NCBI GenBank assembly: GCA_945907755.1 | Contig: CAMDTN010000026.1 | Location: 1 to 34,233 of the forward strand | Source: Singulisphaera sp. GP187 | Lineage (GTDB): Bacteria; Planctomycetota; GCA-002687715 | Length of the DNA: 34,233 nt | Direction: 5' to 3' | Part shown: piece by piece, positions 30,588 to 34,233 of the stretch | Numbering within the stretch: position 1 is the first letter of the stretch | How the letters are laid out: the number at the start of each line of letters is the position of its first letter | The notes under the pieces: model-generated | What the model was told of the DNA's origin: nothing | The model's database searches: none | Seen by the model: the letters and a program-made list of their open reading frames with translations, nothing else | Translations under genes and position numbers: made by a program

Positions 30588-31334
30588 ATGCGCGCAATGA
30601 CCTTGTTTTTGCTGTTGGCTGCCGTTGCTCATGGCCAAGCCGTGAACAACGCGGCCTCGTTCACCGGCGACCTCGAGTTTATTAGCGGCTACGAAGCGGG
30701 GATGGCGGAAGCCAAGTTCACTGGGCGCCCAGCCATGCTGTTCTTCGTGAAGCAAGGCGAGGACAAATGCAAAGTCTGGAGCGGAACCGCCTTCAAGGAC
30801 ACCAACTGCAAGAAGACTCTTGAGAATTATGTGTTGGTGATTATCGACGGCGAAGCCGAGCCCGAAGCGCGCAAGAAATTTCCCTCGAAGGGCTACCCCT
30901 TCGTGAAATTCGTGAATGCTGCTGGCGAACGGCTGTGCGAAATCTGGGAGAGCGCCACGCCAACGGTGTTTGAAATGGCCGCCGGCCGTGGCTTAGGGAA
31001 ACACGGGCAAATCCGCTACAGCGCCACCTACGCGCGAGAAGTTATCGCAGCGGACAGAATAGAAACTGCGTTGCCGCTGAAAGAGTTTCGCGAAGCCATC
31101 CGCTGCATTGCCGAGATTGAGAAGATCAACCACGCGGGCAAGCTGCTGACGCGCGCGCAAGTTGTCAAAGGGGAATTGCAAGCGGAAGCGCGCAAGCGCA
31201 TCGCTGCTGCACAGCAAACTCAAGCGAGCAATACCGCCAACGCCAAGCTGGCCCTTGCCGCTGTGGCCCGCGAATTCGCGGGCCTGCCTGAAGCCACCGA
31301 GGCCGATGGCCTCGCGCGCAAACTCAAGCCTTAG
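30588..31334 (+). CDS. Secreted thioredoxin-fold protein without CxxC
   Basis: A protein of 248 residues. Signal peptide MRAMTLFLLLAAVAHGQ. Residues about 25-125 follow the thioredoxin fold: GYEAGMAEAKFTGRPAMLFFV, then KCKVWS at the active-site position, ENYVLVIIDGE, and the cis-Pro strand GYPFVKFVNAAGE. The active-site CxxC is reduced to a single Cys (CKVW), so it cannot act as a normal dithiol oxidoreductase; a second Cys lies at TNCKK about 14 residues on. The C-terminal half is helical and charged. Role unknown; a redox chaperone or binding protein is possible. Its stop overlaps the convergent yedE gene by 11 bp. Confidence 0.75.
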   Translation: MRAMTLFLLLAAVAHGQAVNNAASFTGDLEFISGYEAGMAEAKFTGRPAMLFFVKQGEDKCKVWSGTAFKDTNCKKTLENYVLVIIDGEAEPEARKKFPSKGYPFVKFVNAAGERLCEIWESATPTVFEMAAGRGLGKHGQIRYSATYAREVIAADRIETALPLKEFREAIRCIAEIEKINHAGKLLTRAQVVKGELQAEARKRIAAAQQTQASNTANAKLALAAVAREFAGLPEATEADGLARKLKP

Positions 31335-32427
31335 TCGCACGCGCGCTGCGCATCACTGTCAGCGCGTACAGCAGCACTAACGGCAGCGCGATGGTCACGA
31401 ACATCCGTCCGCCTTCGGTGGTGCCGCCCGGGCCTGCGGGGCCTGCGGCCACTGAGATCATGGTGAAATTGTGGGCCAATGCGCCGCCCACGAGGATGCC
31501 TGCGGTGGTCACAGCGGCATCGCCGTTGCCTTCGCCGGTCAACACAATTTGCCTCACAGGGCAGCCGCCGGCGAAAGCGCCGCACATGCCCACCAGCGCC
31601 AACGCGAGGGCATTCCAGAGCCAATCACCATGCGCCACAGGCTGGCCATCGAAAGCCCAATTGGCTTTGCCGGTGATTAGTGCTGTCACTGCGTAGCCCA
31701 GCACAAACAGCACTGCCGCAACAAGCATGCGCCCACCACCCGCAAAAACTTGGCGCGCCGCAGCAATGGCGCAGAAGCCGCTTTGCGACAAGGCCACGCC
31801 GGCGCCGATGCCGACGATCAATGCCGTGCTCCACAGCGCGTGCGCTGGTCCGGTGATGGCACCAGCGCCAGGGCCGAGCAGGAACCCGCCCGCGAGGAAG
31901 AGAATCAGCAGCAGCACATAGACACTTGGGCCGATCAAACCCAACACCGGTGTGACCACCTGCGTCTTGCCGAGGTGATAGCCACGCCGCTCCATCACGC
32001 GCGCCACGCCGACGCCCGCGAGGAACCCTGGCAATGCAAGCCATGCATTCAGGTCGCCGCCGCCCAAGCGTTGCAACATGCGGAAGGGGCAGCCGAGGAA
32101 CACCATGGCGCCAACGCCCATGATCAATCCCAGCATGAAGCGCGTCACTGCGAAACTGCCGCTGCGAGCTTCGAAAGTGCGCGTGGCCATGCGCCAGAAC
32201 AGCGCGCCTAAGACAACGCCAACAAGTTCCGGCCTGAAGATGCGCGGCGCAGCAGCGGGAGCGTTGAAGCCCAGCGCGCCAGCGAGGTCGCGCAAGAAGC
32301 ACGCGCCGCAGAGGCCCATATTGCCGGGGTTGCCGGCGGCCACTAACCACGCCGCCAACACGCCCACGGTGAACAACGCCACAAACGCAGGCCACAGCCG
32401 CATCAAAGGCAAGTTAGATCTGAGCAT
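31324..32427 (-). CDS. yedE: YedE-like putative selenium transporter (YeeE/YedE family)
   Basis: A protein of 367 residues with about ten membrane segments. YedE marks: NMGLCGACFLRDLAGALG (Cys40, Cys43), IFRPELVGVVLGALF, FLGCPFRMLQRLGGGDLNAW (Cys113), QSGFCAIAAARQ (Cys219) and GMCGAFAGGCPVRQ (Cys282, Cys289). The family includes the YeeE/TsuA thiosulfate importers; this branch is tied to selenium genes and thought to import a selenium compound through conserved Cys. ATG 32427 is chosen over 32436 and far-upstream starts because TAGGAT (32435-32440) ends 7 nt before it, and the longer readings are Arg-rich and overlap the amidase. The nearby selD, with an amidase between, supports the selenium role. 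Confidence 0.88.
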   Translation of the reverse strand: MLRSNLPLMRLWPAFVALFTVGVLAAWLVAAGNPGNMGLCGACFLRDLAGALGFNAPAAAPRIFRPELVGVVLGALFWRMATRTFEARSGSFAVTRFMLGLIMGVGAMVFLGCPFRMLQRLGGGDLNAWLALPGFLAGVGVARVMERRGYHLGKTQVVTPVLGLIGPSVYVLLLILFLAGGFLLGPGAGAITGPAHALWSTALIVGIGAGVALSQSGFCAIAAARQVFAGGGRMLVAAVLFVLGYAVTALITGKANWAFDGQPVAHGDWLWNALALALVGMCGAFAGGCPVRQIVLTGEGNGDAAVTTAGILVGGALAHNFTMISVAAGPAGPGGTTEGGRMFVTIALPLVLLYALTVMRSARATKA

Positions 32428-32434
32428 GGCGCGC

Positions 32435-32456
32435 ATCCTACGCGAACCACTATGCT
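32435..32456. promoter_or_regulatory. Divergent leaderless-type -10 boxes (yedE / amidase-selD)
   Basis: Minus strand TAGGAT (32435-32440), 7 nt before ATG 32427. Plus strand TATGCT (32451-32456), 6 nt before GTG 32463. No Shine-Dalgarno on either side and no clear -35. Confidence 0.5.
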
Positions 32457-32462
32457 GCGGGC

Positions 32463-33641
32463 GTGAGCGATCGTTTCGCCGAAATCTGCGACCCCTTTGT
32501 GCTGCGCGCTGCCGACCCATCGCCCGCGAGCGAGAAACCGCAAGGAAGCGCCGGCCCACTAACAGGCTTGCGCGTGGCGGTGAAAGACAACATTGATGTC
32601 GCCGGAATGCCCACCGCGGCGGGCAATCCCGGTTATGCAGCCCTGCGCGGCGCAATCGTGCGCGATCATGCTTGCGTGGCGGCGCTGCGCGCTGCGGGCG
32701 CAATCATTGCGGGCAAGACCGTGATGGACGAGTTCGCCTATGGCGCCGACGGTGGCAACGCTCACTACGGCACGCCGCTGAATCCGCGCGCGCCGCTGCA
32801 CACTTGCGGTGGGTCTTCGTGCGGCAGCGCGGCGGCTGTGGCCGCGGGGCTCGCTGCCATCGGGCTGGGCACAGACACCGGTGGATCCACTCGCATCCCG
32901 CCCGCCGCCACGGGGCTGTTCGGGTTGCGGCCCACTCATGGCGCCGTCAACGCGGTGGGCGTGGTGCCATTGGCTGCAAGTTGCGACACCATTGGTTGGA
33001 TGACCCGCGACGCCGCAACCATGGATCAAGTGACGCGCGTATTGGTGCCTTCGCTGCGGACGCAAACGCCGCTGCCGCTGCTGCTGGTGCCAGACATCTT
33101 CGCTGCCTGCGATGCAGACCTCGCCGACGCCGCGCACGAAGCCGCACTGCGCTTGGGCGCACGCGACGCCTGCACGCTGCCCGCAACGCTCGCAGAGTGG
33201 TTTGAACTTTATGTTGGCCTCACGCGCGCAGAAATCCGCACGGCTCATGGGGCCATGGTCGCTTCAGGCCAGTTGCGCTTTGGCCGCCAAGTGGGCGCGC
33301 GCATGGCTGCCGCCTGCGCCGCCGAGGATCAGCCACTCATGGCGCTGCGCCGCGCAGAACTGCGCCGCCAAATGCACGCGTTACTGCAAGGTTGCGTACT
33401 CGCCTTCCCAACTCTGGCCACGCGCACGCCGCTGCGTTGCACGGACGACGCTGCACGGGACGCTTGCCGCCGTCGCATCTTGCCCATCACGGTCATCGCG
33501 CCGCTGCTCGGGTGCCCAGAGATCACGCTGCCTGTGGGCAGCTGCAACGACGGTTTCCCCGCAGCGCTGTCGTTGTTGGCAGCCCCCGGCGCCGAAGCCT
33601 CGCTGCTGCACTACGCACACCAAGCCGCAGCGGTACGATGA
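32463..33641 (+). CDS. Amidase-signature family hydrolase
   Basis: A protein of 392 residues. The Ser-cisSer-Lys triad of the amidase signature family is complete: Lys41 (VKDN), Ser118 in GGSSCGSAAAVAAG and Ser142 in GTDTGGSTRIPP. It is short for the family (450-500 usual) and close to malonamidase-type and AtzF-N-type enzymes; the C-terminal region is compact and lacks an added domain. It hydrolyses a C-N amide bond; the substrate is not predictable. GatA is unlikely without gatB/gatC. GTG 32463 is the start (TATGCT 6 nt upstream; the nearby ATG at 32452 runs into a stop). selD begins 7 bp after its stop, so both are probably co-transcribed. Confidence 0.86.
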   Translation: MSDRFAEICDPFVLRAADPSPASEKPQGSAGPLTGLRVAVKDNIDVAGMPTAAGNPGYAALRGAIVRDHACVAALRAAGAIIAGKTVMDEFAYGADGGNAHYGTPLNPRAPLHTCGGSSCGSAAAVAAGLAAIGLGTDTGGSTRIPPAATGLFGLRPTHGAVNAVGVVPLAASCDTIGWMTRDAATMDQVTRVLVPSLRTQTPLPLLLVPDIFAACDADLADAAHEAALRLGARDACTLPATLAEWFELYVGLTRAEIRTAHGAMVASGQLRFGRQVGARMAAACAAEDQPLMALRRAELRRQMHALLQGCVLAFPTLATRTPLRCTDDAARDACRRRILPITVIAPLLGCPEITLPVGSCNDGFPAALSLLAAPGAEASLLHYAHQAAAVR

Positions 33642-33648
33642 CCACGCC

Positions 33649-34233
33649 ATGAGCGAGATGCCACGCCTTACAAGTCTCAGCCCAGGCGGAGGATGAGCTT
33701 CTAAAATCGGCCCCGCCGATTTGGCGCAGGTTCTGCGCCATCTTCCACCTGTCATAGATCCAGCAGTTGTCGTCGGCATCGAGCACGGCGACGACGCCGC
33801 CGTTTATCGCCTTGGCTCCGGCGAGAACATCGTGGCCACGCTGGATTTTTTCACGCCCGTAGTAGACGACCCCTTCGACTTCGGGCGCATCGCCGCAGCG
33901 AATTCGCTCAGCGATGTCTATGCCATGGGCGGCACGCCGTTGTTCGCTCTGTCCGTCGTCTGTTGGCCCGTCAAACTGGGCATGGAACCGTTGGGCCGCA
34001 TCCTCGCGGGCGGTGCAGCAGTTGCGACAGCCGCGGGCATTCCCATCCTCGGCGGCCATTCCGTAGACGACAGCGTGCCCAAGTTCGGACTGGTTGTCAT
34101 CGGCCGCGTCGATGCCGACAAGTTGTGCACCAACAGCGCCGCGCAGGCGGGCGATTTGATTTACCTCACAAAACCCATTGGGTCTGGTGCGTTGACCGGC
34201 GCGCTGAAAAAAGATTTGCTGCCCCCTGAACAG
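33649..34233 (+). CDS. selD: Selenophosphate synthetase with in-frame selenocysteine codon (partial, 3' end outside window)
   Basis: From ATG 33649, 15 codons lead to TGA 33694-33696, after which the same frame stays open to the window end. Read through as Sec, the start is PRLTSLSPGGGUASKI, matching the SelD active-site loop (GxGCGCKI or GGGUASKI) with Sec16 at the catalytic position and Lys19 next to it. SelD landmarks follow: GDDAAVYRL, TLDFFTPVVDDPFDFGRIAAANSLSDVYAMGG (segments), ILGGHSVDD and LTKPIGSGAL. SelD makes selenophosphate from selenide and ATP for Sec-tRNA and selenouridine. 195 codons are visible of about 345. Standard gene callers would stop at residue 15 or start late. Two hairpins after the TGA may form the SECIS. 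Confidence 0.95.
33694..33696 (+). other. UGA selenocysteine codon of selD
   Basis: TGA in frame between GGG and ASKI, the position of catalytic Cys/Sec in all SelD proteins. Homology continues on both sides in one frame, which excludes a true stop or a frameshift. Confidence 0.93.
33704..33739 (+). promoter_or_regulatory. Candidate bacterial SECIS: two abutting perfect hairpins
   Basis: Hairpin 1: AAATCGGC (33704-33711) with GCCGATTT (33715-33722), loop CCC. Hairpin 2: GGCGCAG (33723-33729) with CTGCGCC (33733-33739), loop GTT. They touch end to end. Bacterial SECIS elements lie just 3' of the UGA and need a small apical loop with an early G; hairpin 2 has this (GU in the loop, 33 nt after the UGA), hairpin 1 does not. 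Confidence 0.6.

Follow-up and report, generated by a model that had tools for sequence, protein, structure and literature searches.

Bacterial SECIS elements are diverse and hard to predict. The SECIS element of Escherichia coli fdhF has a GGUC-like loop core. In the accessible text of PMC8659212, it is described as one 40-nt hairpin whose upper part lies 11 nt from the UGA. The bSECISearch consensus, in the form quoted in the available part of PMC13188914, is a single stem-loop with a loop of 3–9 nt, an upper stem of 4–16 bp, a G in the first two loop positions within the pattern N1-G-[G/U]-N-N2, a UGA-to-loop distance of 16–37 nt and a minimum free energy (MFE) of at most −7.5 kcal/mol; the same source, a review of 2026, states that distinct bacterial SECIS classes exist outside this single model. 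Selenocysteine (Sec) in SelD is already common and well known (PMC1794560, available part), and SelD bSECIS elements of prokaryotes have been predicted with RNAz (PMC4561486, available part). The eukaryotic SPS genes, members of the same gene family, carry stem-loops beside the Sec UGA that aid recoding, an SRE next to a 3′ UTR SECIS or an HRE without one (PMC4561486, available part); their likeness to the element described here is one of position only. No account of a bacterial SECIS made of two hairpins turned up within the accessible text of the open-licence literature, and a supplementary figure of PMC4561486 on SelD bSECIS might show one.

The window analysed here, a planctomycete sequence of 34,233 nucleotides, is contig 26 of a genome of 2.68 Mb in 94 contigs (97% complete). 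The 5′ part of selD, encoding selenide, water dikinase, occupies 33649–34233 on the + strand; it starts with an ATG at 33649 and the frame stays open past an in-frame TGA up to the contig end, which falls inside the gene. The fragment matches the NCBIfam selD model TIGR00476 with 248 bits (cut-off 125), and with TGA read as U its translation runs ...RLTSLSPGGG-U-ASKIGPADLAQVL..., placing the TGA (33694–33696, + strand) at the catalytic Cys/Sec site with SelD homology on both sides. Twelve genomes of the same order were searched, our own included: 11 have selD, each with one TGA within the match, and G008 gave no selD match. Among the matches listed, TGA stands at the same place in many of 59 near genomes (own included) and of 392 of the phylum, and TGA-carrying selD genes are numerous in further groups too; other homologues have Cys. 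The gene shares with the Sec-containing SelD family the catalytic Sec and the selD equivalog match, and no unusual traits were noticed in the protein; the difference lies in the RNA signal only.

The sequence-only reading had identified this TGA as SelD codon 16, the catalytic Cys/Sec position, and had concluded that the organism must carry selA, selB and selC. Translation, TIGR00476 and the TGA of the relatives agree with the identification, and all three genes were found in the same genome, as in an organism that decodes Sec. selA lies at C67:8060-9145 (E 1.3e-126) and is adjoined by the tRNA-Sec gene (78 bits, anticodon tca). selB was matched on contig C75 (325 bits) and runs off that contig; its end was located by eye on contig C54, hence the gene is split over two contigs. 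Upstream of selD, a putative selenium transporter of the YedE family (31324–32703, − strand; TIGR04112, 290.6 bits, cut-off 200) is given here as its longest open reading frame; because this frame overlaps an amidase frame (32463–33641), the true start of the transporter is probably further in. The amidase is the sole gene between transporter and selD, and the contig end is therefore a selenium locus. A search for further selenoproteins in our genome, limited to the molybdopterin family, gave three matches, none with TGA. Two selD matches are found in at least the planctomycete genomes G004 and G210 (both with TGA) and G024, G029 and G070 (one with and one without TGA).

Numbered from the T of the TGA (position = window minus 33693), the selD mRNA continues with a single-stranded spacer of 7 nt (33697–33703, + strand) followed by two hairpins. 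Hairpin 1 (H1; 33704–33722, + strand; AAATCGGC/CCC/GCCGATTT) has 8 bp, 11–18 paired with 22–29, and a loop CCC (19–21) without G. Hairpin 2 (H2; 33723–33739, + strand; GGCGCAG/GTT/CTGCGCC) has 7 bp, 30–36 paired with 40–46, and a triloop GUU (37–39) closed by G-C. Both are perfect, they abut directly and they form part of the MFE structure; U33722 and A33740 (U29-A47) can add a pair to H2, U29 then leaving H1. The fold of 33694–33760 has −22.4 kcal/mol compared with −14.3 kcal/mol for shuffled sequences (z −3.09; 0 of 200 as good), and three pairs checked in the window have probabilities of 0.98–1.00. The perfect 8- and 7-bp hairpins that the earlier reading had seen behind the TGA with no gap from one to the other, the second with the G-containing loop, thus stand. 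Chance is very unlikely because the pair is conserved. Rfam gave no match in 33000–34233 at E values up to 5.

We compared H2 with the published bSECISearch constraints as quoted in PMC13188914 (available part). It has a 7-bp stem, a loop GUU (or GGUUC), the G in its required place (G-GUU-C), a UGA-to-loop distance of 32 or 33 nt and a segment energy of −13.7 kcal/mol (row L002), and like the model element it lies inside the coding region with N1 and N2 of a 3- to 5-nt N1-G-U-N-N2 loop paired. Among the Sec sequences that bear the peptide motif given below, the loop is GGUNY in 105 of 107 and AGUNU in the other two, so that all 107 present GUN. These features suggest that H2 is the SECIS bound by SelB. 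By contrast, H1 departs from the quoted G rule: its loop in the window reads CCC, and among 77 tandem sequences just two carry a G at the first or second loop place; because of this rarity it is no typical SelB ligand. The locus differs from the quoted model in this second conserved hairpin of 7–8 bp, with its G-free loop, lying between UGA and SECIS and flush with the latter. The earlier description of a stacked pair as unusual is right with respect to the published single stem-loop, but the arrangement is common within some clades rather than an oddity of this genome, and H2 alone fits the model.

With the E. coli fdhF element the selD signal shares the GGUC-like loop core and the SelB route. 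It differs in that H2 starts 26 nt from the UGA and H1 fills the gap (fdhF geometry as given in the available part of PMC8659212). The fdhA genes of order relatives (L397-L401) contain a TGA, and their SECIS loop, GGUCU at 22–26, is of the E. coli kind; the G-GUC-U loop resembles that of H2, whereas the fdhA element is a single near hairpin without H1.

The tandem arrangement was found in all 11 same-order genomes with selD: H2 is present with 6 or 7 of 7 pairs, and a hairpin occupies the H1 place in each, perfect and in the same register in six loci (L002-L007) and shifted, with 5 bp each, in five (L008, L014, L023, L162 and L163). The codons just after the UGA align without gaps among selD genes. 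Outside the phylum, the exact H1 register recurs with other sequences in Gemmatimonadota (CTCGGC-CCC-GCCGAG) and Myxococcota (ATCCGC-CCG-GCGGAT and CTCCGC-CCC-GCGGAG); one Rhodospirillales record (L241) has 6 of the 7 inner H1 pairs, yet p is 0.44 against its own shuffles. H1 recurs across Planctomycetota, Gemmatimonadota and Myxococcota and in a single record from Rhodospirillales. That the stems should be kept among relatives with TGA, with altered sequence, is what was observed. The selD finder missed 5 of 349 loci (L080, L095, L155, L161 and L264).

Of the 55 far-loop Sec clusters, 47 have a Watson-Crick hairpin of at least 4 bp at positions 9–28, compared with 28 of 80 other Sec and 4 of 52 Cys clusters. 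Where H1 is out of register, a shifted hairpin is present in 15 of 21 clusters, and six of the 55 lack any hairpin at the H1 place, whether shifted or in register. Cys-selD sequences with the same motif form a small control (4 clusters, 11 rows): H2 pairs are lost in 9 of 11, L354 and L356 keeping 6 of 7. The Cys relative L248 retains all 7 H1 pairs.

For the covariation analysis, 92 distinct Sec-selD sequences were chosen solely by the peptide [AST]QV[LM] at codons 11–14 and then aligned; they derive from the 107 motif-bearing Sec rows, in which some records are doubled (e.g. L003 = L167), and their selection predates the last 20 loci, which were picked as forms without TGA. In H2, 97.0% of cells are paired, double changes occur at three pairs, and the closing pair 36–40 is G-C, G-U or A-U in all 92. 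The seven inner pairs of H1 are paired in 80.4% of cells. Taken jointly, the hairpins show 109 double-change cells compared with 42.7 in shuffled alignments and a covariation score of 0.285 versus 0.130 (0 of 500 shuffles; slid registers ≤0.073). The corresponding values for H1 alone are 72 versus 35.8 cells and 0.291 versus 0.136 (0 of 500; slid ≤0.114). When H1 was scored by itself, two out of five count measures were not above shuffles, namely pairs changed on both sides (163 of 500) and further pair types (108 of 500), and pair 12–28 revealed no clear coupling (A-U 4, A-C 15). RNAalifold drew H2 only, both in the full set of 92 and in a taxon-weighted subset of 61. In single-sequence folds of 93 distinct sequences, a local hairpin occupied the H1 place in 82, and the MFE structure contained H2 as drawn in 73; the best pair probability has a median of 0.98 (mean 0.65) for in-register H1 and of 0.99 (mean 0.80) for H2.

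Silent sites provide a further measure. The third base of Ala codon 8 lies opposite base 16. Among sequences with G16 it is C 31 times, T twice and never G; among those with C16 it is G 35 times and C and A once each. After clustering at 80% identity the C:G ratio is 12:0 versus 0:10. When downstream Ala codons are pooled, C and G are nearly balanced in either group (C:G 360:416 and 373:344); one such site (DDA) is biased in the direction of codon 8, so part of the signal is due to shared descent. The switch between G-C and C-G at 16–24 took three changes on the tree, one of them forced by well-supported branches, and with so few changes the Fisher values overstate independence. The silent base 27 of Asp showed no significant coupling with base 13 (p 0.25).

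Shuffling of synonymous codons in the 55 far-loop clusters gave a mean z of −1.44 for H1, with 69% of clusters below −1 and 16 of 55 singly at p ≤0.05; the Fisher value is 3e-15 if the 55 clusters are treated as independent. For H2 the mean z was −2.64 and all clusters lay below −1. The four Cys clusters with the same peptide had mean z values of −0.42 (H1) and −0.25 (H2). An earlier run with fewer loci was in line with this, yielding −1.42 (H1) and −2.46 (H2) for 35 far-loop Sec sequences, and in the H1 zone a mean of −0.16 to −0.41 for 46 single-hairpin class A Sec sequences (loop at 30–34; −0.41 at the H1 place itself) and of −0.54, reaching −0.65 a few bases on, for 88 Cys-selD, whose H2 place scored +0.11; 48 other Sec sequences gave −0.34 at the H1 place and a peak of −0.89 at 13–36. 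In the H1 zone, Cys genes too show some structure, clearly less than tandem Sec genes. That both hairpins are under selection as RNA is supported by these sequence comparisons, and for H1 the support is good.

On a tree of 107 of 188 rows retained after thinning, in which the Cys rows were reduced to 22, it takes 10 changes to explain the tandem label, at least seven of them forced. This pattern points either to an old arrangement that was often lost or shifted or to several gains. Rows labelled as having H2 but no in-register H1 did not cluster on this tree, since 272 of 500 shuffles scored as low. We ran a covariance model built on both hairpins over the 59 near genomes, our own included, under stricter filters. 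Its best 20 matches (E ≤7.5e-8) are all at selD and, among the matches listed, the next in our genome has an E of 0.005; the model is rich in selD coding sequence, so tandem signals may exist in other genes.

How might the two hairpins act together? We propose a bipartite recoding signal in which H2, with its G-GUN-C/U apical loop, would serve as the SECIS for SelB-GTP-Sec-tRNA, and H1, with a loop lacking G, would fold out the 19-nt stretch that separates H2 from the short spacer. With H1 folded, the base of H2 would adjoin that of H1, and the path to the UGA would shrink from 26 nt to about 7 nt (plus the H1 base), close to the spacing of ~11 nt in fdhF of E. coli. The best reading of the data, which we hold with moderate confidence as one joint proposal, is that UGA-16 of selD is decoded as Sec by the organism's own SelA/SelB/SelC system, H2 being the SelB ligand and H1 a spacer hairpin that folds away the extra distance to the UGA. 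One ground for taking H1 as a spacer is that class A selD genes, in which the loop is nearer, have no extra hairpin. Four order relatives with both genes (G003-G006) were compared, a TGA-containing fdhA fragment of G010 standing outside the comparison: in all four the fdhA loop GGUCU lies at 22–26 and the selD loop at 36–40 behind a 5-bp hairpin, and the same SelB presumably serves both genes. According to the available part of PMC4513850, a ribosome with UGA in its A site covers ~11 nt and in E. coli the lower SECIS stem opens on its approach, so that H1 may have lost its outer pairs by the time of decoding.

The main rival to the spacer role is a pausing role: H1 would assist recoding on its own at the mRNA entrance, slowing or stalling the ribosome while the UGA is near the A site, or hindering termination, regardless of where H2 is placed. 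H1 is strong and conserved, it starts 8 nt after the UGA, approximately at the entrance of a ribosome that covers ~11 nt (PMC4513850, available part), and readthrough elements beside UGA are known from the SRE and HRE of eukaryotic SPS genes (PMC4561486, available part). Yet the 46 class A selD genes carry no extra hairpin, their signal being no more than that of Cys-selD, which favours a role in distance, and we consider pausing unlikely on balance. Improbable, in our view, is an H1 without present function, be it the relic of an earlier SECIS close to the UGA or a side effect of the conserved K-I/L-x-P-x-D/E-L codons. Other selD genes do carry a near hairpin at 15–29 as their likely SECIS, H1 sits in a conserved peptide, and Cys genes have both the fully paired L248 and a mild excess of structure; the silent-site coupling (31:0 versus 1:35), the excess over synonymous shuffles and the shifted hairpins in out-of-register clusters speak against it. 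Mere chance or coding as the origin of the hairpins is likewise disfavoured by the shuffles and the coupling.

An exchange of roles, with H1 as the SelB ligand and H2 as accessory, would put the ligand nearer to the UGA, with a loop that starts 15 nt after it, just under the published 16–37 nt; but a CCC loop conflicts with the G rule (PMC13188914, available part), H2 presents GUN throughout the motif-bearing Sec rows, and we rejected this highly improbable assignment for its loop without G. That the TGA truly ends the protein, stems from a sequencing error or has been reassigned, with hairpins there by chance, is scarcely credible given the single TGA in selD of every selD-bearing order genome, the many elsewhere among the matches listed and the full Sec machinery; reassignment and a pseudogene were rejected on the same grounds.

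If the spacer reading of H1 holds, its reach could extend beyond this locus. We suggest tentatively, and with rather more doubt than confidence, that several phyla use a modular bipartite selD SECIS, in which a SelB-binding hairpin that is perhaps too far away is combined with a conserved non-binding hairpin that folds the distance away. Far loops would then generally need a folded spacer, the 16–37 nt rule (as quoted in the available part of PMC13188914) would hide a rule of three-dimensional distance, and finders working on sequence only would miss part of the signal. A two-part element that several phyla conserve, located in the gene on which the whole selenium pathway depends for its supply, offers a concrete class to test; it could improve selenoprotein finding and raises the question of how SelB measures its distance to the UGA.

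Other planctomycete selD genes have other layouts, among them a single GGACCU-N5-AGGUCC hairpin (24–29/35–40), a near hairpin at 15–29 and a long hairpin with the loop UGGAN at 41–45. Eight sequences of family f43 (L031, L120, L123, L127, L130, L134, L135 and L145; genomes 85–100% complete) carry selD with an in-frame TGA and show no hairpin signal in the next 80 nt relative to synonymous shuffles (mean z −0.57 to 0.70). The long hairpin, with an outer stem like GGACCU/AGGUCC, is found in family f29 (L009, L032-L035), and its loop is at the 37-nt limit quoted in the available part of PMC13188914. The near hairpin, GGGUCC-NNN-GGACCU, occurs in family f66 (L078, L088, L089, L091 and L107) and in part of L307-L320; some selD genes of this type have a second hairpin at about 36–50, which makes another two-hairpin layout in a different register.
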